From assembly GCA_918026815.1 (NCBI GenBank), contig CAKJVC010000003.1, positions 124,001-188,000 on the forward strand: DNA of 64,000 bases, in the 5' to 3' direction. Shown piece after piece: positions 24,410 through 62,345 of the stretch; position 1 is the first letter of the stretch; the number at the start of each line of letters is the position of its first letter. Origin of the DNA: Chalara sp. BL73. Lineage: Eukaryota > Ascomycota > Leotiomycetes > Helotiales. Below the pieces are notes generated by a model. The model made no database searches and was not told where the DNA came from. It was given only the letters and a program-made list of their open reading frames with translations. The position numbers and the translations under genes were made by a program.

Positions 24410-25270
24410 TCAATCCAGAATCACGAACACCTTGCCTTCAACTGAAGCAGCCTCAAATTCGACATCCTCTCCGATGTCGCCGGCGGTTGTCACCTCTTCC
24501 AAGACAGCCTCGAAGGTATCCAAATCTGTTTCGCCTCTGACAGCACCAAATGATCGCCATACGGCCTTCATCTTTAGCTTAGCTTCGACAAGATTCTTAC
24601 TGCCCTTTGAGGAGAATATTGTTGTTGCGACCTTTTGGTACTGAACGGCGATGATTCGTTCCCCAGGAGTAACGAATGATGCTCCCAGGGAGCTTCTGGA
24701 TTTATGTTCACTTTCAAGTTTGACATCGAGCACTGTTCCTTTCCCTAGAAGCTTCGAAGCTCCAGGAGCCACAGAATCGGTGATTGGGGCCTGGATGCGG
24801 CCACTAATCTCCGTAGAAGCGTCTCGATTGAGACTGATTGAAGCGTCTTCAAGCGTATGCAAGCCTACGACCATGTATACTTCCGCACCTGTCAAGACCA
24901 CCTTTTCAATCCACTTTTTAACATTGTTATCCTCGAAAATGCTTTCGAACTTCAGGTTGACGTTGAGCAACTGATGGCGCATAGCGGTCTTGGTAAAGAT
25001 GTCATCAATAGTGGTCTGAGACCTTTCAGCAAAGACCATAAAAACTTCTGAGAGGGCGCTTTTGAAACGAGACGACGATTCCGCATTGGCAAGTGACTTC
25101 AAGTCTGAGAATTCTGCTTTAGATATATCGCCTTCCTGTAGGTGAAGAGCGCCAAAGGGGCAGAAATTTTGACCCGGATTCTTCATATCAAGAACAAGGC
25201 GACCTAAGGCTACCTGTTCTGGGGCTAAATACCCGTTCATAAGCACGGAAAGGGAACTTTGAGGCATCAC
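24410..25270 (-). CDS. Fungal gasdermin-like pore-forming protein (candidate cell-death executioner)
   Basis: A single exon of 286 residues, the size of known fungal gasdermins (RCD-1, HET-Q1, about 250-280). Seen: a short N-terminus leading to LGRLVLDMKNP; a central block with VKKWIEKVVLTGAEVYMVVG and LHTLEDASISLNRD; then alternating hydrophobic strands including GERIIAVQYQKVATTIFSS. The order (helical N-terminal half; Gly-x-x-VYMVVG strand; charged loop; GxxxxVQYxKV strand) is what I recall from fungal gasdermins and parallels the VFVVTE and ILAFRV strands of animal gasdermin N-domains. The last about 40 residues are acidic (ETDLDTFEAVLEEVTTAGDI) and would be the inhibitory tail removed by a protease. 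In this family, cleavage of such a tail frees the domain to oligomerise and perforate the plasma membrane. It is divergently paired with a CHAT protease gene, the arrangement reported for many fungal gasdermins, and this context strengthens the call. No catalytic motif exists in this family, so a structure or HMM comparison is the decisive test. Confidence 0.72.
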   Translation of the reverse strand: MMPQSSLSVLMNGYLAPEQVALGRLVLDMKNPGQNFCPFGALHLQEGDISKAEFSDLKSLANAESSSRFKSALSEVFMVFAERSQTTIDDIFTKTAMRHQLLNVNLKFESIFEDNNVKKWIEKVVLTGAEVYMVVGLHTLEDASISLNRDASTEISGRIQAPITDSVAPGASKLLGKGTVLDVKLESEHKSRSSLGASFVTPGERIIAVQYQKVATTIFSSKGSKNLVEAKLKMKAVWRSFGAVRGETDLDTFEAVLEEVTTAGDIGEDVEFEAASVEGKVFVILD

Positions 25271-25758
25271 GACAGGTTAACTGCTGGATGTTGCTTAGCT
25301 CGAAGGACGTGCGTAGTGATTTATTGGTGTGAGATATATCAACGAGGTGAACGCATCAAAAAACGAAGACTGCGTCGTTGTCAAGCTTTGCGTGCCATGT
25401 CGCACCTGAATCGCCCGATTCGCTCGATTTCTGTACGCCACTAAAAGCCACCTCAGGCTCCCTCCTATACTTTTGCTTTTTTTCTCGGGTGGACTACGAA
25501 CAACACTTCTATCTGCACATAACGAGTTTCTAATGTTACCTGTCCCAGCACTCTCCGCATGTAGGTAGTCAAAGAGCGGTGATTAGCCACAGGAAAGCAT
25601 TAATAACGACCACGGTCAAAACAAGTAGACAAACCGACTCCTGCAACGCCCTACTAAACTAAACTGTGTTCTATTTAGTCAATTGCCTTAACTTCTCGAA
25701 AGTAGCCAGTTCCGAACTGTGAAAACTCACACGCAGATACTCTAGTGGCACTAAATCT
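25271..25758. promoter_or_regulatory. Divergent promoter of the gasdermin-like / TPR-CHAT pair
   Basis: 488 bp separate the two start codons, so both genes must be driven from this interval. I see no clear TATA box. Pyrimidine-rich stretches lie near 25460-25490. Shared regulation is an inference from the head-to-head layout. Confidence 0.5.
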
Positions 25759-28700
25759 ATGAGCTCAGATTCTTCAGTCCCGGTTGCGGAGGCTGAACTT
25801 CCCAAGCATCCCGTCAGAAGCCCAGGTAGGGCATGGGATTTATTTGAGCTTGCTAAAGCGCACCTCTATCAATTCCAGATAAATCATTCTGGCGAGGATC
25901 TAGACTTAGCCAGAGAACTGTTTTCAGAGGCTATTGAATGCGAGCCCGATACTTCGAAGAAGGCCAGGTATCTCGGTAATCTTGGTATCGTCTATCAATA
26001 CAGATATAACCAAACAGGACATGCATCTGACTTGGGCGCTTTTCTCGATTGCACGCAACAGGCTAAAGATCACATCGCAGACGAGTTTCGACCAGCTGCT
26101 CTGCAAAACTACGCAAATGCACTTCAGCTTAGATTCTCCCAAGATGGTGATCCGCAGGATCTCGATGAATGCATTGGCGCATACAGAGATACTTTGAGCT
26201 TGCCAACAGCTAGCAGGCCGAAGACTTGTAGTAACTTATGTGCTGCATTGATGACACGGTCTCAATTGAGCGGATCTCAATCAGATCTGGACGAGGCTTG
26301 CAGAGTTGGGCGTGAGGCAGTGTCATCGACAGATGAACAACATCCCATGAGAGCTATATTTCTGGATAGCTTTGCAAATGCTCTCTGTACTCAGTATACA
26401 AGGACAAATTCGATTCCTGACCTGAACGAGTCTATCAGGCATGGCACAGCCGCAGTGTCCTTAGCTAAAGAGCAAGGTCTGCCAGAGGTGTCCACCTTTT
26501 GTTTGAATCTTGGTGGAGCGTTAGCGTCTCGATTCAAAATTTACAGAGAACTGGCTGACTTGGATGACGCTATCGACATGTTTTCTCGCGCCGAAGACGA
26601 AATGAATCCACATAATCCGAGTTATGGAAAAATTCATTTCAACAAGGGGAATGCATTGCGCATGAGATTTGAGGAAACCGCTGCTGAAGAGGATTTGGTT
26701 CGTGGTGTTGATGCCTGCACACAAGCCGTGAGCTTTGGATTTAAAGAAATGCAACTTCAAGCTCAAGCCGAAGATGCTCTGGGAAATGTGCTCTTAAGAA
26801 AATATGATTTCACAGGTTTGCCGGACATTCTCGATGAGGCGGTACGGATGTACAAGCAAGCTTTACAACGGAGAATGGATGCTACATCGGCTGCTAATAT
26901 CTGGAACAACCTTGGTGCAGCGTTGCAAACTAGATTCGAGCTCCGCGGTTCTTTGGAAGACTTACATAATGCACTAGAAGCCATTGAAAAAGGGCTTAAG
27001 GCCTCCACCGCGAGAATCCCTGGTCATGCCTCGTCGTTGGTCACACTTGGTAATGTCCTTGTGAGGAAATTTGAAAGATTGAATCTACCTGACACATTGG
27101 ATCAAGCAGTATCCGTATACAAAGAAGCCTTAGATATGACCCCAGAGACTGACCAATTGCATGCAGGAAGGTTGTCATGCTTGGGACATGCTCTGCAGAT
27201 CCGCTTCGAGTCTCAGGGCTTAGACACAGATTTTGAAGAAGCTGTTCGATGCTGCCGAAAATCGATAGATCTTTCGAATACAGGGCCAACCTACTTTATA
27301 TGTTTAGTCAACTTAGGGAATTGCTTCCTTAGGCGAGTAATAAGGGACTCATCCATACAGGGCTCAGAGCACCTGAGTGCAGCAATCAAGAACCTTCAAA
27401 CCGCCGCAGACGAGATGCCAAAATATTCTTCCACGAGAGCCATGTGCCTCAATAATCTTGGCAAAGCTTATGAGCTAAAATTTGAGCGAACCCAGATGGA
27501 TGATGACTTTGACAAAGCAACGAGGAGTTACAAAATGGCATTGGATTTGAGTTCAGCAACTCCCGTGCTACGAGTCACCGCCGGATATCGAGGAATGGTC
27601 TTGACATGGTCTAAAGACCCCCCAACATCAGTCATGTTTCTGAAATCGGCTACGAAACTACTTCATATGGTCAGTCCTCGTATTCTTAACCGTGCCGATC
27701 AACAAGACAATATCGCTACCTTTTCTGGACTTGCCAGCATCGGTGCGTCTATCCTTCTTGAATCCGGTAGCGAATGCTTTGAGGCTCTCCAAATCTTAGA
27801 GTTGAGTAGAGGTGTCATGAGCTCTATGCTTTTAGATGCTCGTATAGACACTACTGATCTGGAAAATCATGACCCAGATCTGGCAAAAGAGTTCATAGCA
27901 CTTCGAGATCAGCTTGACTCATCTCCCAACGAGCTCGTCAAAGCATCAGACGTTCTATTTGATTCAAAGTTGGATATGGAAAGAAGAATTACGGCTTCGA
28001 AGAGATTCAACGAGATACTTGATAAAATTCGCTCTGATGACAAGACGAATGGTGTTTTCCTGGGACCGACGAAGGATGAACTACAATCTCTTTCAGAGTC
28101 CGGGACGATCGTGGTCATTAATGTTTCGTTTATACGAAGCGATGCACTCATAATAACGAAAGACAGAACATGGCATTATAGCCTCCAAGATCTGAACCAA
28201 GCAGACGTTTTACAACATGCGGGAAATTACATCAAGACACTCGAGCAAGATACCCCGGTCAGCCGCAAGAAGACGAGTAAATCTCTTCATAGCATACTCA
28301 AATGGCTATGGGATGCCATTGTTGGTCCGATATTGATCGAATTGGGTACTTTCGGGAAGGCACAGGGATGGCCACGGATTTGGTGGATTCCAGTTGGCCT
28401 GATGTCTATCTTCCCCCTCCACGCTGCTGGAGACCATTCTGGCAAAACAGATAACAATGCACTGGATCGAGTGATCTCTTCCTATGCGCCAACAATAAAA
28501 TCCCTGAGCCACTCCAGAAGAATCAACCAAAAGTCAATCTCATCCGACCCCACAAAAGCCGTGTTTATAGCAATGTCGTCAACGCCTAACCAAGCAGACT
28601 TGAATTGCGCCGACACAGAAGTCACTCAGCTTCTCTCCAATATGCCAGAGGAAATCATCACCAAAGTCGTGTTTAAAAGCCCGGCCTACAAACATGATGT

Positions 28701-29199
28701 GCTACCAGCTCTTCAAGGTTGTGGCGTGGCGCACTTTAGTTGCCACGGTATCGTCGATCACATAAATCCTTCCAACAGCAGACTCTTGCTCTCGGACTGG
28801 GAAACCAGCCCTCTCACCGTCGCCGATATCAATGCTCTCAAACTCTCCAATGCACGGTTGGCATATCTTTCAGCCTGCCACGCGTCGAGTAATAGGGCCA
28901 TAGACCTCCTGGACGAGGGCATCCATCTCACCGGCGCATTCCAGATGGCGGGGTTCCCGCAGGCGATTGGATCTTTGTGGCAAGTGGACGATGAGAGGAG
29001 CGCGGTGGTGTCCCGGATAGTATGGGATACGATGTTGACTACCGTCGGGGGCGTGGCGGTTGATTTTGGGAAGGCAGCCGAGGGGCTGCATCATGCTTTG
29101 AGGGCATTGAGAGAGGAGACTCGTTGGGTGGAGGGTTTGAAGATGAGATTTCCGGATCAGCCTATCGTGTGGGCTCCCTTTATCCATATGGGAATGTGA
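25759..29199 (+). CDS. TPR-CHAT caspase-like protease, predicted activator of the adjacent gasdermin
   Basis: A single uninterrupted frame of 1146 residues. From about residue 27 to 600 there are some 12-13 tetratricopeptide-type repeats spaced about 48-51 residues, each built on an NLGxALQxRFxxxGxxxDLDxA pattern (for example LGNVLLRKYDFTGLPDILDE and LGAALQTRFELRGSLEDLHN). A helical linker follows, then a C-terminal CHAT domain (about 850-1146) that opens with IWWIPVGLMSIFPLHAAG. The catalytic dyad of this clan CD peptidase family is present: His996 in HFSCHG and Cys1040 in YLSACH, followed by the usual GSLWQVDD block. CHAT proteases are relatives of caspases and separase; the same TPR plus CHAT layout occurs in Csx29 of type III-E CRISPR systems. 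There is no NACHT or NB-ARC domain, so the TPR array is the likely sensor. Head-to-head pairing with a gasdermin-like gene implies that its substrate is the gasdermin tail; this is inference. Confidence 0.9.
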   Translation: MSSDSSVPVAEAELPKHPVRSPGRAWDLFELAKAHLYQFQINHSGEDLDLARELFSEAIECEPDTSKKARYLGNLGIVYQYRYNQTGHASDLGAFLDCTQQAKDHIADEFRPAALQNYANALQLRFSQDGDPQDLDECIGAYRDTLSLPTASRPKTCSNLCAALMTRSQLSGSQSDLDEACRVGREAVSSTDEQHPMRAIFLDSFANALCTQYTRTNSIPDLNESIRHGTAAVSLAKEQGLPEVSTFCLNLGGALASRFKIYRELADLDDAIDMFSRAEDEMNPHNPSYGKIHFNKGNALRMRFEETAAEEDLVRGVDACTQAVSFGFKEMQLQAQAEDALGNVLLRKYDFTGLPDILDEAVRMYKQALQRRMDATSAANIWNNLGAALQTRFELRGSLEDLHNALEAIEKGLKASTARIPGHASSLVTLGNVLVRKFERLNLPDTLDQAVSVYKEALDMTPETDQLHAGRLSCLGHALQIRFESQGLDTDFEEAVRCCRKSIDLSNTGPTYFICLVNLGNCFLRRVIRDSSIQGSEHLSAAIKNLQTAADEMPKYSSTRAMCLNNLGKAYELKFERTQMDDDFDKATRSYKMALDLSSATPVLRVTAGYRGMVLTWSKDPPTSVMFLKSATKLLHMVSPRILNRADQQDNIATFSGLASIGASILLESGSECFEALQILELSRGVMSSMLLDARIDTTDLENHDPDLAKEFIALRDQLDSSPNELVKASDVLFDSKLDMERRITASKRFNEILDKIRSDDKTNGVFLGPTKDELQSLSESGTIVVINVSFIRSDALIITKDRTWHYSLQDLNQADVLQHAGNYIKTLEQDTPVSRKKTSKSLHSILKWLWDAIVGPILIELGTFGKAQGWPRIWWIPVGLMSIFPLHAAGDHSGKTDNNALDRVISSYAPTIKSLSHSRRINQKSISSDPTKAVFIAMSSTPNQADLNCADTEVTQLLSNMPEEIITKVVFKSPAYKHDVLPALQGCGVAHFSCHGIVDHINPSNSRLLLSDWETSPLTVADINALKLSNARLAYLSACHASSNRAIDLLDEGIHLTGAFQMAGFPQAIGSLWQVDDERSAVVSRIVWDTMLTTVGGVAVDFGKAAEGLHHALRALREETRWVEGLKMRFPDQPIVWAPFIHMGM

Positions 29200-33701: not shown

Positions 33702-34309
33702 ACTCGAGTAGGCAGTAACAAATCAAGCTGTATGGTAAAATAGGAGAAATGATGTTATAAGTAGACACACGGTGCGCTCTACCTTTTACAGCTATCTTGA
33801 ACCCCAATGCATTGATTTCAGGGCGGCACACATATCTTGAAGAGTGAAATCGCCTACCATTGTCTCGTTGTGCATAAAGATATCGCCTACTATAGCCATA
33901 GCTAAGCAAGCTCCTCGGGAAGTATCCGAAAGGTAAGGCTACATTGGATATACTGAGACTTTTAAGCGTTTCAGATAAAGTGACTGAGAGTCGCCAGCCA
34001 GCTACACGGCTCGGAATATTGTCTCACCGTCGATATCATCACGTGAAGCGTACCTTGATAACCTCAACTTCAATCACGGAAAAAGCAACCTAAAAGTCAA
34101 CATATCTATGTATGTAAGTAGCATCTCTAGCGCATGTAATTTGCGATAGCAGAAACTTTATCCGTTCATCTTTTCGGGGGAGCCGAAAAAAGCATAGCGG
34201 CTGTTGCTAGACTTTTTGCAGCGGATTTGGAGATAGCATGTGTTCGAGATCTCCATAGGAATTCCACAAACAATTATTGTCTTGGCTATTAAGTCTAGAG
34301 GGTATTTCT
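33702..34309. promoter_or_regulatory. Divergent intergenic region (GPI-protein gene / pseudouridine enzyme gene)
   Basis: About 608 bp separate two divergent start codons. Promoter function is inferred from position; I see no specific site. A minus-strand frame here (33562-33909) is the signal-peptide exon read in a different frame. Confidence 0.5.
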
Positions 34310-37217
34310 ATGGCTATGGCGATGTTGCGATCGCAGTTGTTAGGAACAAAGTTGCAACCTAAATCTTTTTCGTACAAAGGTGCATTGTTTTCTTCCGAAC
34401 TATGTTTCTCATATCGACCACGTTACCTCGCAATAAATGGCGACTCCAGAGGGCTTCGATCATTTGGAACACCTTCCAAACATACAAAAACCTATGTCAA
34501 GCTATCTGAGGAAGTGCAATGGGCGTTACACAACAAGAACAAACCTGTTGTGGCCATGGAATCAGCAATATACACTCATGGTTTCCCCAATCCGCATAAT
34601 CTTGCCCTTGCTCAAGATCTGGAGGCCATCGTTCGACTTCATGGTGCGGTGCCTGCAACCATTGCTATCATTGGAGGCATTGCAAAAATCGGACTCGATC
34701 AACAGGAGCTAGAAATTATAGCAAGCTCTGCCGGACAACCGCAGACGATGAAAGTCTCAAGGAAGGATCTTCCATATATATTTGGAATGGTAAGTAGTTT
34801 TTGAGGAATCTAATTCTTTCCACGTGATCTTATATGAAGAAATTTACTCATCAAATGTAGGGAATAGCCGGGCGGAAACTGATTGGAGGTACCACAGTCG
34901 CAGGCACTATGGTTCTTGCCCATGCAGTGGGGATCCAAGTTTTTGGAACTGGAGGGCTCGGTGGAGTCCATCGAGGCGGACAAGATACTATGGACATTTC
35001 TGCTGACCTTACTGAGCTAGGCCGCACACCTGTAGCGGTGATCAGCAGTGGCTGCAAAAGTTTTTTGGACATCCCTCGAACTTTGGAATATCTCGAAACT
35101 CAGGGGGTTGGTGTATTCACATTTGCTGACGGCCGTTCTGGCGATGTTGACTTTCCAGCATTTTACACCAGAGACAGTGGAGTAAAGTCACCTGTGGTAG
35201 TTCGCAATGAGTACGAGGCCGCATCAATCATTTGTAAGTGTCGTTTTAATTTTCTTCGTTGTATATTTACTGATGAGTCCAGACGCGGCAAATAATATGT
35301 TCCATACCGTACCGAACGCGAACACATTCTCGAGCGGTCTGCTTCTCGCAAACCCAGTACCTGAAAAATTCGCTATTCCTAAGGAGGAGATCGATTTCGC
35401 AATCAGTGAGGCCGTCCGAGAGGCTGCTGAAAATAACATTCATGGACCTGCTAATACCCCGTATATCCTTGCTCGAATCAAAGATATCACAAAAGGTAAT
35501 AGTCTTCCCGCCAACCGAGGGCTAATCGAGTCGAACGTCGCTATGGCTGCTAAGGTTTCTGTGGAACTCAACAAAATGGATCGTGCGGAACTGCATTTGG
35601 AGCAGCCACGTGAGGACAACGTCGCCAGAGCAAGAAGGACTGCTGGGTCGTTTGCAAATATCCAATATGACCGCCCTCATACAAAGCGTCCTGGTAATGC
35701 CGTAGGCAAAGCATTTAAAAGTCTATCACTTGATTCAACAGCGCCGCAATCAGACCCGAAGGATGGTGATCGAGCGAAGAGTTCTGGCACAACGAAAAGC
35801 GGTATCCGTAATTCAGATAATCTAGATTCCGTTCAGAAATTTCACGGAGAACGCGACCTCCCAGACATAGTATGTGGCACATGTTCCCTGATGGGTTATA
35901 TCGTATACATTTTATCGTAAGGCATGGTTATATTGACATTTTGCTTTAGTCCTTTCCGCTTGCCAGCATCTTGGTGTTTGGATCTGTAGCCGTGGATACG
36001 AATTGTACAGCAAGCGGCACTCCACAGATGCACACCTCAAATATCGCCAAAATGAGTTCATCTATTGGGGGTGTCGGATACAACGTTGCTTTTGCCGCTC
36101 ATCTAGTTGGCGGCAACGAGTCGGCAGGTCTATGTAGTCTTGTTGCAGATGATGTGTAAGCCATCCCCTCATTATTTGTAAACTCCTTTAACGAATATCT
36201 AGTGCTGGACAAACAATTCTCTCTAGCCATAGCCTGACACAAGAAGATGGACTTGGCACTGATGGTATCCTAAAAATATCATCTAGCGCTTCGAGACGGA
36301 CCGCTCAATATATCGCTGTCAACGACGCGAAGGGCGATCTGGTGATTGCCGTTGCAGATATGGGGGTCTTTGAGGAGAGGATACTTGATTCACACCTATC
36401 TACTATCCAAGTTCCCGAAAATCTAAAGTGGATAGTCGTAGATGCGAATTGGAACCCTGATACTGCCAGAGCAATCATGTATAAATACTCTTCCCTGGGT
36501 GTCAAAGTTGCGTTCGAGCCGGTCTCTGTTGCCAAGTCAAGTCGAATACTCCAGCCTTCACTTAAAGATAGGGTTAACTTGGGAATTTATCCTCAAAACA
36601 TGGTTAATCTTACTACCCCGAATCAGCATGAGCTAAGCGCTATGCATGCAGCTGCGAGGGAGTATGGACTCTTCGAGGGTGAAGAGTGGTGGAAGGTGAT
36701 TGACGCTTTGGGCATATCTAGTGCAGGAGCACGCGATCGCTTCGTCTCTATTACAAACTCTGCCATGACCGACCGGGGAATACCTCTACAGACGGTACAA
36801 CTGCTTCCATTTTTCCCTACCATCGTCACAAAACTTGGAGCTGATGGCGTTCTCCTCACGGAACTCCTTAAGCCAAATGACCCTCGCCTTAAGGATCCAA
36901 TACATAGCAAGTATATTCTCTGCCGGACATTCAATATGTCCGACAAACAAAGCATTGGTGGGGTGTACATGCGGCTATATCCGGGCGTGGAAAAGGTTGA
37001 AGATGTTGTAAACGTTAATGGAGTGGGCGATACATTCCTGGGAGTCCTGGCGGCAGGTCTAGCTAGAGGCCTACCTTTGCGGAAAGACCTCATCAACCTC
37101 GCCCAGAAGGGAGCGGTCATGACGTTGCGAAGCAAAATGTCCGTACATCCCAAGCTCCGAGATCTGAATAAGCCACTACTCGATTTGGTGAGAGTACATC
37201 ATGTTGAGAATTCATAA
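34310..37217 (+). CDS. Bifunctional pseudouridine-5'-phosphate glycosidase / pseudouridine kinase, join(34310..34789,34861..35233,35283..35869,35950..36155,36203..37217)
   Basis: Degrades pseudouridine: the PfkB-type kinase makes pseudouridine 5'-phosphate and the PsuG/IndA-type glycosidase splits it into uracil and ribose 5-phosphate. Five exons give 886 residues. Glycosidase (about 65-380): [47 protein letters not shown] and [12 protein letters not shown] are hallmark blocks. A polar linker (about 380-480) follows. Kinase (about 485-880): [27 protein letters not shown], and the PfkB signature [18 protein letters not shown] with its catalytic Asp. Introns (71, 49, 80 and 47 nt) were placed by frame and family continuity. 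The N-terminal about 50 residues are basic and hydroxylated, and could be a mitochondrial presequence. The fused order matches the fungal bifunctional enzymes (S. pombe C1861.05 type). Confidence 0.9.
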
Positions 37218-57939: not shown

Positions 57940-59050
57940 GCGCAATCAAAAAGTTTTCGATTCTATATCTATTTTCTGATTTACTTTTTTTTGGGGTTAT
58001 TTTGTTATTTACACGACTATAGCTAATACTACAAGTACTCGACGCAGTGCTAAAAGCAAAGTCGCTACTTGTAACAACTCAAGCTGAATAGGGATCTCGA
58101 TCCGTGGATCTAGGTAGAAGGACTCAGAGGTGTAAACAACTATCAATTATTATAACTAAGAGAACAAGCTACGGACAAAAGAAAGGAAAAAAAGCAGTGC
58201 TTTTATATACAGGAACTGGCCGGGGCCAGTATAGGCGAGCTTTGCGGTGTTCGGTGCTGAGCTTCGCCGGAGCTCTGGAGCATCCGGTGCTGAGTTTTGT
58301 CCGAGCTTTAGAGCATCCGGTGCTAAGCTTTTGTCCGAGTTCTGGAGCATCCGATGCTAAGCTTCGTTCGAGCTTTAAAGCATTCAGTGCTAAGCTCCAA
58401 GCCAAAAAAAACTAAAGTCGTAACATTACTTTCTTTTTTTGTATAGCTTGCTTTTAAGCTATAGCAATCGAAATTAAAAATAAAAATAAAAGTAAAATAA
58501 AAATAATAATCCACTATTTTAGCTCGTATAGTTTGCTTTATTTATTATTATTTAAGCGATTAGCTGGTTTTTTGCTTTGTAAATAACAATTAAGCTAGTA
58601 TTGTAAGTTTACTGAAAAAACTTTTAGTTTTAAAATATTTTTCGTAAAAAGCTTTAAACTTGTATAGCGCTTTTTTGAATTTTTCAGCATTATAAAATAC
58701 AAAGTTATAGTTTACGTTTATTTATTTAATTTAGTACTGCAGTTTCCGGCAGTATTTTTAGCTTTGCTCGATTTTTTATTTTAACTGTTAGTTATAAACT
58801 ACAAACATTAAAAGCTTTTAATGCTAGTTTAATAACAAATTATTAAAGTTTTTTTGTAAAAGTTTCGATGCAAAAAAGTTATAAAACTAATTGTTTTTTT
58901 AAAAGTTTTAAACAGTACAAATAACTTATTTGTTTAGTAATTTTATATAAGCTTTTATTTTAATAGCCGAGTTTTCGGTTTAGCTGTTTATTAATTTAGT
59001 TTTTTGTTGAAACTTATATTTTGTTTTTAATTTTAAAATCGACTAATCGT
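57940..59050. other. AT-rich decayed sequence between transposons
   Basis: About 1.1 kb. From about 58440 on it is extremely AT-rich with long T and A runs and no open frame of note, consistent with heavily mutated repeat DNA. The minisatellite at 58252-58384 lies inside it. No gene is supported. Confidence 0.6.
58252..58384. repeat. 33-bp minisatellite, about four copies
   Basis: Four consecutive units starting CGGTGCTGAGCTT / CGGTGCTGAGTTT / CGGTGCTAAGCTT / CGATGCTAAGCTT, each with a CGAGCT or CGGAGCT and an AGAGCAT or GGAGCAT end, spaced 33-34 bp, then a partial fifth. The period is a multiple of three, and the plus-strand frame reads as an 11-residue repeat, but no larger gene contains it. 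Confidence 0.75.
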
Positions 59051-59186
59051 TAATGTTGAGGGTCTAGCCCTAATTGTAGCAAATAGCAAAGCAAATGAAA
59101 TTGTAGTGAACGTTTATTCTTTTCTCTTTAGCTCCCCTAGCGCCTCTAGCTCCTCTAGCTCCTGTTCCCGCTTTAGCCTATTTAGG
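59051..59186 (-). mobile_element. Truncated LINE copy A (both ends lost)
   Basis: 136 bp of LINE 3' sequence (from GTTGAGGGTCTAGCC to CCTATTTAGG). Its 3' tail is replaced by AT-rich DNA, and its 5' end stops at exactly the same point as the next copy. Confidence 0.8.
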
Positions 59187-59450
59187 TTATTATTATTATT
59201 ATTCCTTTTAACGTGCTGTATCAGTCGAGGACTATGTAGCACGGCTAGCGCCTAGGCGCTAGCGTTCCTATCTAGTTTATGTACAAGCAATGGTGGTAGT
59301 CAATCTATTACAGTGAATGTTGAGGGTCTAGCCCTAATTGTAGCAAATAGCAAAACAAATGAAATTGTAGCGAACGTCTATTCCTCTCTCTCTAGCTCCC
59401 CTAGCGCCTCTAGCTCCTCTAGCTCCTGTTCCCGCTTTAGCCTATTTAGG
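59187..59450 (-). mobile_element. Truncated LINE copy B, complete 264-bp tandem unit
   Basis: Starts with the (TTA)n tail, contains the 3' non-coding end and last codons of the LINE, and ends CCTATTTAGG, joined directly to the tail of the next copy at 59451. It shares diagnostic changes with copy A (CTTTAGCCTATTTAGG against CTCTAGCCTGTTCAGG in the long copy), so A and B look like a tandem duplication rather than two separate insertions. Confidence 0.85.
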
Positions 59451-62345
59451 TTATTATTATTATTATTCCTTTTAACGTGCTGTATCAGTCGAGGACTATG
59501 TAGCACGGCTAGCGCCTAGGCGCTAGCGTTCCTATCTAGTTTATGTACAAGCAATGGTGGTAGTCAATCTATTACAGTGAATGTTGAGGGTCTAGCCCTA
59601 ATTGTAGCAAATAGCAAAACAAATGAAATTGTAGTGAACGTCTATTCCTCTCTCTCTAGCTCCCCTAGCGCCTCTAGCTCCTCTAGCTCCTGTTCCCGCT
59701 CTAGCCTGTTCAGGTGATTCCGTCTAGTACAAACGCTAGTCGCTTTGAGGAACGCTAGCGTCTTTTCAATACCGATTGTTGTGTGCAATAGTAAAGCCAT
59801 TGTAAGCCTGTTTCCTCCAAAGTCATTTTTGAGCTTTGATCTAGCTAAAACTAGCTTAGGATCATTACAGCTAAGTAGCAAATGCTGAGCTGTTTCCTTC
59901 GTTCCGCACACACACTTGTCAGACGTCACATGACTTAGCTTGTGCAAATATGATCGAATATAGCCGTGGCCGGGCTTTAGTTGAAATAGCGAGCTAGCTA
60001 GCTCTCTAGTCGTTCCGCGCGGTAGTTGTATTTTTGACTTGATTTTCCACAGAAATAGCTTTTTATACGTAAATGGATTTGTACTAGGCTTGCTGTCGTA
60101 CTTTGCTAGCACATTTTTCCATTCCGCAATATTAGCTTTTTTAGCTTCGCAGCCTAATACCGCAAAACTAGTTGTTGTAGTGCTAGGTTCGATAGTTGTA
60201 GCTAGTTTAGCTAGTTTGTCGGCTTGGTCGTTTCCATAGATATCCGTGTGTCCTGGAACCCACTTTAATGCAATACTAGCTCTTTTTTCTATTGCATGTA
60301 GCGTAGCTTCGCTAGCGCGTATTTGCTGTGATTGGCCGGGATTGTCGTCAGCTGATTTTAGCCTGTGAAGTGCGGCTTGGTTGTCGGCATAGATATTGTA
60401 GTTTTGGCCAGGCTGTGCTATTGTACTAGCGTATTCGATAGCTTGTGTGATTCCTTCTAGCTCTCCATTGTAGACTAGCTGTAATTGGCCAATGTTGTCG
60501 ATATTGCGATGTATTGTACTAGGCCGTCCTTGATTGTCGTATTGTAGCGCAATGAAGCCGATTCCTACACCTGTCGATTCGGTGCTGGGAACCATCGACG
60601 CATCGGAATACATGTTAATTGTACTAAGGTAGCTTAGGTGATTCAAGCTAGTTTGGTGCATTGTGGTGGCGTTCTCTTTTGACAGCGAGCTGATTTCGAC
60701 TTTGTATGGCGTAGTGCGATTCTATGGAGCGTACTTGTAGTGCTGAATATGCTCTAGTCTAGCTAAACTAGCTGAACTAGCTAAACTAGCTGAACTAGCG
60801 ATGCGTTCTAGCTGTGTGCCGGCTGTAGCTGTTTGTGTAGCTTGTTTGATTGGGTGATTTTGAGGAAGCTTCAAAGCTCGAATAGCATATTGTCGTACGC
60901 TAGCATTAAGTCGTACGCTAGCGGAATACAATGCCGATTCGACTTCCATAGGGCAAATAGGGCTAGTTCGGAAAACACCTAGTATTTTGCGTAGTGCTAG
61001 GTTCTGTAATAATTGTAATTGTCGGCTAACTTGTGCTTGACCTTTCCACCATATTATCGCTCCATAGTCGGCCACGCTAGTCACGCAAGCGAAGTATAAT
61101 TGTCGAATAGCAAAAGGGCTAAGACCTTGCTCCGTGTTAGCTAGTCTAGCTAGTCGATTGAAAGCTGACCTAGCTTAACTAGTACGTATTGCGACGTGTT
61201 GCTTGAATGTGAGCCCTGAATCGAACCAAATGCCTAGCCAGCGTACTAGCTTTTTTGGCTGTACGACGTTGTTGTCAGGTAGTCGTAAGCTAATTGTACT
61301 AGCTAGTTTAGCTGTCGTAAAGTGGATTAGTTCGGTTTTGGCCAAATCGAATTGAATTGCATTCAAGCTTACTAGTTCAGCTAGTTTAGCTACTTCGCGT
61401 TCTAGTATGCGTACATTTTTCCGCAAGCTAGTCGATGACGTAGTTAATGACATATCGTCTATGTACGACACTATTTTAATCGACGAAGCTAGCTTTGCCG
61501 CTAAGTCTCGTATGTAGATCAAGAATAGTATTGGCGAAATAAGACTGCTTTGCGGAATGCCGGTATTAATTGTACTAAATTGCTCTAGTTGGTTGTCGAA
61601 CGAAAGTCGTAATTGTCGATTAGCTAGAAATAACGACACCCAGGAAATCAAGCTAGTCGGCATGCCGAGCTTTTGCAAAATAGCTAGTAACTGATTTTTG
61701 GCCACGTGATCGAATGCTCCTTTAATGTCTAGTAGCAGCGTTGTTGTTGTACGTTTTGCTAGTCGATTTTGCTGTATCTTATTTGTCAATAGCATTGCCG
61801 CGTCGATAGCTGATTTTTTCAAGCGACCTCCGATTTGCGTATTGTGCAATAAGCTAGTTGTTTCTGCTAAGTAGCTAAGTCGCTGAGCTAGTATGCGTTC
61901 GCTAATTTTGCTTAAGCAATTTAGTAGCGATATTACTTTATATACTGTCGGATCCGTATAGTCAGGCTTTTAATGCTTTTTGAGTATTACACTTGTAGCT
62001 TGCTTCCAGCACTTTGAGTGATAGCCGATATGCAATAGACTAGCAAATAGTCTATAAAATAGCTCTGAATGCGTACGATATGCTTAGCGAACAATATCTT
62101 GATTAATTGAATCAGGACCTGGCGTTTTGCCTTTGATTTTTGCCGAACACGCATTCTCTAGCTCCGAAATAGCTAGTTTAAGCCATTCCCAGCTAGTACT
62201 AGGTCGATAATTGTACCAAGCTAAATTAGCTGCTATTGGTAGCGGAGAGAACAGCTTGCTACGTAGCGTACTAGCTTTGCCTTAGAACGTCGTTTGGCCT
62301 AATATAGTCGGCAATCTTTCCGTTTGTCGATCAACGTTTTAATAA
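59451..62345 (-). mobile_element. 5'-truncated non-LTR (Tad-like) retrotransposon, ORF2 portion
   Basis: Minus-strand LINE with a (TTA)n 3' tail at 59451. In one frame it encodes, from 5' to 3': a KGKTPGPDSINQD block, reverse transcriptase, RNase H and a C-terminal CxCx7Hx4C knuckle. The upstream endonuclease part is missing: sequence related to ORF2 ends at about 62345, where a plus-strand ORF1-like gene region begins. The Tad-clade assignment (LINE with RNase H and C-terminal knuckle, common in filamentous ascomycetes) is from family knowledge. Confidence 0.85.
59642..62290 (-). pseudogene. LINE ORF2 (reverse transcriptase + RNase H), dead by at least four in-frame stops
   Basis: One continuous frame interrupted by TAA at 62084-62086, TAA at 61970-61972, TAA at 61175-61177 and TAG at 60722-60724, without frameshift. 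RT: LDIKGAFDHV (first catalytic Asp) and SYIDDMS (YxDD box, here YIDD), with the PQSSLISPILFLIY block between. RNase H in the last 339-codon open part: YSDAS, NGELEGI, YADNQAA and GNDQADKLAK supply the D-E-D-D residues, and WVPGHTDI is typical. The C-terminal knuckle is CVCGTKETAQHLLLSC. The long open stretches between single stops suggest fairly recent inactivation. Confidence 0.85.

Follow-up and report, generated by a model that had tools for sequence, protein, structure and literature searches.

Here we describe a head-to-head pair of genes in a 64,000-nucleotide stretch of DNA (the window) from Chalara sp. BL73 (Helotiales; GCA_918026815.1, contig CAKJVC010000003.1, positions 124,001 to 188,000 of the forward strand; host assembly of 58.66 Mb in 199 contigs) that probably forms a two-gene regulated-cell-death module, pairing a latent gasdermin with a TPR-CHAT protease as its sensor and activator. 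This modular reading rests on the observed gene pair, an intact catalytic dyad, fold resemblance, conserved linkage, parallel divergence and an acidic tail. An earlier note on this DNA had placed a gasdermin-like gene beside a TPR-CHAT gene with a shared, divergent upstream stretch; the adjacency and the arrangement stand, but the small protein measures 285 rather than 286 residues and the gap between the two ATGs 491 rather than 488 bp. The locus is laid out as follows.

24410..25267, minus strand: gasdermin-like gene, 285 residues plus stop in one open frame (ATG at 25265-25267, stop at 24410-24412)
25268..25758: intergenic stretch of 491 bp separating the two divergent ATGs
25759..29199, plus strand: TPR-CHAT gene, 1146 residues in one open frame

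Both promoters presumably lie in the intergenic stretch. Judged by homology, neither gene is a chance open reading frame, because a first search with the small protein returned 24 homologues (27-94% identity, 70-100% of length covered) and a search with the CHAT protein returned 275 matches, the top-ranked at 73% identity over 100% of its length. The nearest named homologues of the small protein come from Bisporella, Rhexocercosporidium, Cadophora, Oculimacula, Leptodontidium and Glarea.

The identification of the small protein as gasdermin-like, which the earlier note had proposed, rests on comparison of profiles and folds and not on family libraries. Two homologue searches combined gave 80 relatives, of which 62 were aligned with the window protein in a 63-sequence profile (A3) that omits 13 short or partial proteins and all but one (P0180) of six domain fusions described below. 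Searched against PDB sequences, this profile found RCD-1 of Neurospora crassa as its best matches (E 0.001-0.0055); a smaller profile (A2) reached RCD-1 at E 0.085-0.86, and the single sequence gave five matches at E 0.62 or worse, which we take as chance. An arginine methyltransferase (3wst, E 0.019 with A3) matched over 36 residues inside the RCD-1-matching stretch and is likewise attributed to chance. A first AlphaFold2 model from 25 sequences (predicted local distance difference test score, pLDDT, 59.6) already had ten RCD-1-2 chains at the head of its matches, with a best E of 0.028. In the final model, built from 63 sequences in its place, RCD-1 again came out on top, and the top 15 aligned entries were all gasdermins, above every entry of the cholesterol-dependent cytolysin (CDC) type; structure prediction, put forward in that note as a check, came out in favor of its proposal. 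Identity to RCD-1 is 9-16% in structural alignments and 25% in one 51-column piece. Thus, the predicted model has the gasdermin pore-forming fold, and the A3 profile shows the sequence relation to RCD-1 that marks fungal gasdermins (fGSDM). The model also contains a poorly predicted loop, which we presume to sit where gasdermins carry their membrane-inserting hairpin.

24680..24844, minus strand: low-confidence loop, residues 142-196 (pLDDT below 50 for 142-195), between strands 130-140 and 203-219

Pfam, NCBIfam and PADLOC gave no family match for the window protein. Across the clade, Pfam was run on the 63 members, and NCBIfam and PADLOC on four; the sole Pfam match, DUF5348 in five of the 63 (best E 0.0017), and a PADLOC match of another gasdermin-like protein, P0188, to SspD (E 0.023) are both taken as chance. 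Because these libraries fail to recognize the gasdermin, the named members of the clade are annotated "hypothetical protein" and nothing more.

The partner carries a CHAT domain (PF12770) at residues 846-1145 (128.3 bits, E 5e-37, cut-off 24), preceded by TPRs that begin at residue 46, with TPR_10, TPR_11 and TPR_12 all above the Pfam cut-off. The dyad predicted for it, His996 and Cys1040, is exact in position and invariant in all 15 rows of an alignment (A4) of the window protein with 14 relatives, from which the Bisporella protein P0035 is absent, its partial gene model stopping before the dyad. The best NCBIfam match was Csx29, a CRISPR-associated TPR-CHAT protein (E 2e-11; 43 bits against a cut-off of 300). 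Two other assignments were rejected. The window CHAT protein (P0002) is not classed as a NOD-like receptor (NLR), since Pfam found no NB-ARC or NACHT domain in it at E up to 1. Nor is there an S8 family among its Pfam matches at the same limit; because the partner is a TPR-CHAT protein and not an S8 protease, membership of the HET-Q1/HET-Q2 type was rejected.

The gasdermin-like protein ends in a short, strongly acidic segment, whereas the body before residue 245 has a net charge of +3.

24413..24535, minus strand: C-terminal tail, acidic (net charge -12 over residues 245-285), a candidate inhibitory segment that would be removed

In 61 of the 63 A3 rows (two were dropped by length limits), we compared each tail with all body segments of the same length. 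The tail was the more acidic throughout in 53 of them; the mean tail charge is -11. Ilyonectria and other distant members are among the eight exceptions. Just ahead of it lies a conserved stretch, in which W237 is invariant in all 62 rows having a residue there, position 240 is aromatic in 49 of 62 (F in 35, Y in 14) and position 244 is R in 36 of 62, making F240 and R244 both candidate cut sites. Its position, matching that of the 40-residue tail lost by HET-Q1, suggests that the acidic segment could be the removable inhibitory part.

The earlier note had named conservation of the two genes as neighbors as a check, and in six relatives both genes indeed lie on the same contig; two of the six have consecutive tags.

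Bisporella PMI_857: linked pair, contig of 75,399
Rhexocercosporidium: linked pair, contig of 3,382,063
Cadophora M221: linked pair, contig of 40,790, consecutive tags IFR05_010692/_010693
Oculimacula yallundae: linked pair, contig of 2,935,321, consecutive tags VTL71DRAFT_10384/_10385
Ilyonectria destructans: linked pair, contig of 1,553,480
Sixth relative: linked pair, contig of 37,757

A shared contig was assigned where the contigs of both proteins are of identical size, with each protein cluster represented by one contig, the longest, and the comparison took in all CHAT rows among the matches listed (the best 120 of 275). Of the 15 nearest CHAT relatives, 6 are linked, as are 6 of the 33 gasdermin relatives on contigs of at least 5 kb; the remaining relatives could be without linkage, could lie near another protease, or could be linked in a way hidden by the display of the longest contig. 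At 491 bp, the window pair falls within the 10-kb distance that marks a protease-clustered gasdermin module, and the association is conserved, by consecutive tags in two relatives and by a shared contig in four others. The two proteins have also diverged in parallel: over seven pairs (the window and the six relatives, P0035 being included as a partial sequence), their identities correlate with r 0.987, a value reached by 2 of 5040 relabellings, which would also be expected from common descent of the species.

Additional pairs occur in the same genome. The assembly holds 15 CHAT matches on 13 contigs, and we scanned the open frames flanking them on 12 of these (one side only for C27; C82 was left out), together with the window, using the gasdermin profile. 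This yielded three gasdermin-like genes, each of which adjoins a CHAT gene and points away from it. Besides the window gene these are as follows.

C13, 113,459-114,331 (L029:7460-8332), minus strand: gasdermin-like gene, 291 residues, profile E 1e-12
C13, from 114,851 (L029:8852 into L030 to 4325), plus strand: CHAT gene, 1658 residues, dyad His244/Cys289
C164, L013:3456-6381: gasdermin-like gene split in two, its middle part absent, and a CHAT match with an internal stop

The C13 genes lie head to head, 519 bp apart. Their CHAT protein looks NLR-like: it has a GSGKS motif at position 529, and NACHT scores 17.5 bits, short of its 26.7-bit cut-off. The C164 pair is probably degraded; beyond its CHAT match, inspection by eye suggests a P-loop-like motif. 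Over the last 60 residues the net charge is -16 in the C13 gasdermin-like protein, the tail of which contains a run of Asp, and -18 in the C164 piece. Searches of the genome with single proteins, one of them with the C13 gene, are less sensitive than the profile and returned no copies beyond these three.

These observations suggest how the module may work. The pore-forming domain, approximately residues 1-244, would be kept inactive by the short acidic tail (about 245-285), which we propose covers a basic membrane-binding patch, by analogy to RCD-1, whose affinity for membranes depends on such a patch (PMC12881547) and which binds acidic membranes (PMC11760362). The TPR array would sense a trigger and is joined to the caspase-like CHAT cysteine protease, which would then make its cut close to where the conserved W237..F240..R244 stretch ends. 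Departure of the tail would expose the basic surface, and the freed gasdermin would oligomerize into a plasma-membrane pore, killing the cell or the fused hyphal compartment. The trigger could be incompatibility or defense against other invaders, presumably sensed by the TPRs. The cell-death or incompatibility module proposed in the earlier note is thus supported; what we infer is the cleavage and its site, the basic surface, the pore, the death of the cell and the trigger.

The closest solved relative, RCD-1, is activated by two antagonistic alleles and not by cleavage (PMC12881547), which raises the question of whether a different allele or partner switches on the present gasdermin, with the CHAT neighbor acting as regulator or guard. 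A single genome was examined, in which alleles would not be visible. However, RCD-1 has no inhibitory C-terminal domain (PMC11760362), whereas an acidic tail is found in 53 of the 61 family rows tested, and the CHAT protein of the linked gene keeps its dyad in every aligned row; we therefore consider activation by alleles unlikely. The protease could instead cut another target, the two genes only sharing a promoter or hitch-hiking in a defense island. TPR-CHAT proteins are known to act on other targets, Csx29 is the best NCBIfam match here, and cleavage of the gasdermin by CHAT is itself a proposal, but linkage in six relatives, parallel divergence and the two further pairs of this genome favor a functional pair and make this explanation improbable as well. 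We give very little credence to the small protein being another MACPF/CDC-like pore fold, or an unrelated fold that resembles gasdermin in a model of moderate confidence, because independent sequence-profile evidence names the same family and 15 gasdermin entries precede every CDC-type entry in the fold ranking.

A side observation, which we find more interesting than the gene pair, is that in 6 of 77 relatives a PNP_UDP (PF01048) segment precedes the gasdermin-like domain in the same open frame (P0169, P0183, P0184, P0191, P0174 and P0180). A Pfam scan of five of them placed PNP_UDP above the cut-off in one and below it in four (E 2.7e-5 to 0.013); P0180 starts inside the PNP_UDP segment and was judged by alignment. 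The fusions could in part be gene-calling joins, although the boundary between the two domains is similar across different fusion sequences. PNP_UDP often forms the N-terminal domain of NLRs in fungi, and in bacteria it has been described as an immune ATP nucleosidase (PMC10197012); the fusions would connect two known immune domains in a new way. The covered passages of the fungal literature that treats gasdermin and PNP_UDP mention no such fusion, which does not establish its absence from print. We tentatively speculate that this is a distinct, modular gasdermin clade in which the acidic tail is an electrostatic latch, with the gasdermin either freed by a head-to-head TPR-CHAT or CHAT-NLR protease or fused to PNP_UDP, which might couple nucleotide sensing or depletion to membrane rupture, perhaps without a protease.

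Elsewhere in the window, two Indigoidine_A pieces lie ahead of a PfkB kinase piece at 34259-37217 on the plus strand; together they are probably one spliced gene of pseudouridine catabolism. The GC fraction falls to 0.366 at 58001-60000, compared with 0.399-0.531 in the other 2-kb blocks.

Approximately 80% of the gasdermin genes in fungi stand in clusters with protease genes. One review places about 19% of them no farther than 10 kb from a CHAT gene, and another gives CHAT as about 17% of the neighboring proteases (PMC10197012, PMC10989679). Because protease/gasdermin modules have been published, including a TPR-CHAT/gasdermin cluster in Podospora anserina, the window pair belongs to an already known type; it extends this type to a clade that the family libraries we tried fail to recognize. 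The papers listed for gasdermin and Helotiales were off topic, which likewise does not establish absence from print. With two single-frame genes, a predicted cut region (W237-R244) and an exact catalytic residue, the pair offers a simple experimental system, and the acidic-tail rule, if true, would explain how fungal gasdermins are silenced by very short tails. In Aspergillus fumigatus, the heterokaryon-incompatibility gene hetB has one allele that codes for a CHAT protein (PMC11138114).

Among known systems, the Podospora cluster is like the window pair in joining a gasdermin gene to the gene of a TPR-bearing CHAT protease, and activation of its gasdermin by that protease is attributed to Clave et al. 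2022 (PMC12881547); the likeness is between a published description and a pair known from its genes. HET-Q1, also compared by description, has 278 residues and becomes active once HET-Q2, cutting after F238, has taken off the last 40 (PMC10989679). The window protein is similar in having 285 residues, an aromatic residue at position 240 in most rows and a tail that is acidic from about 245 on. The proteases differ, HET-Q2 being an S8 serine protease of 388 residues and the window neighbor a TPR-CHAT cysteine protease of 1146. RCD-1-1/RCD-1-2 of N. crassa (PDB 8jyx, 8jyy, 8jyz) provide the closest solved fold and the best PDB sequence match, yet differ from what is proposed for the window family in being activated by antagonistic alleles without cleavage and in having no inhibitory C-terminal domain (PMC12881547, PMC11760362). 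The gasdermins of PDB 7n50, 7n51, 7n52 and 8sl0 are bacterial, and the window protein is unmatched by the PADLOC or NCBIfam models.
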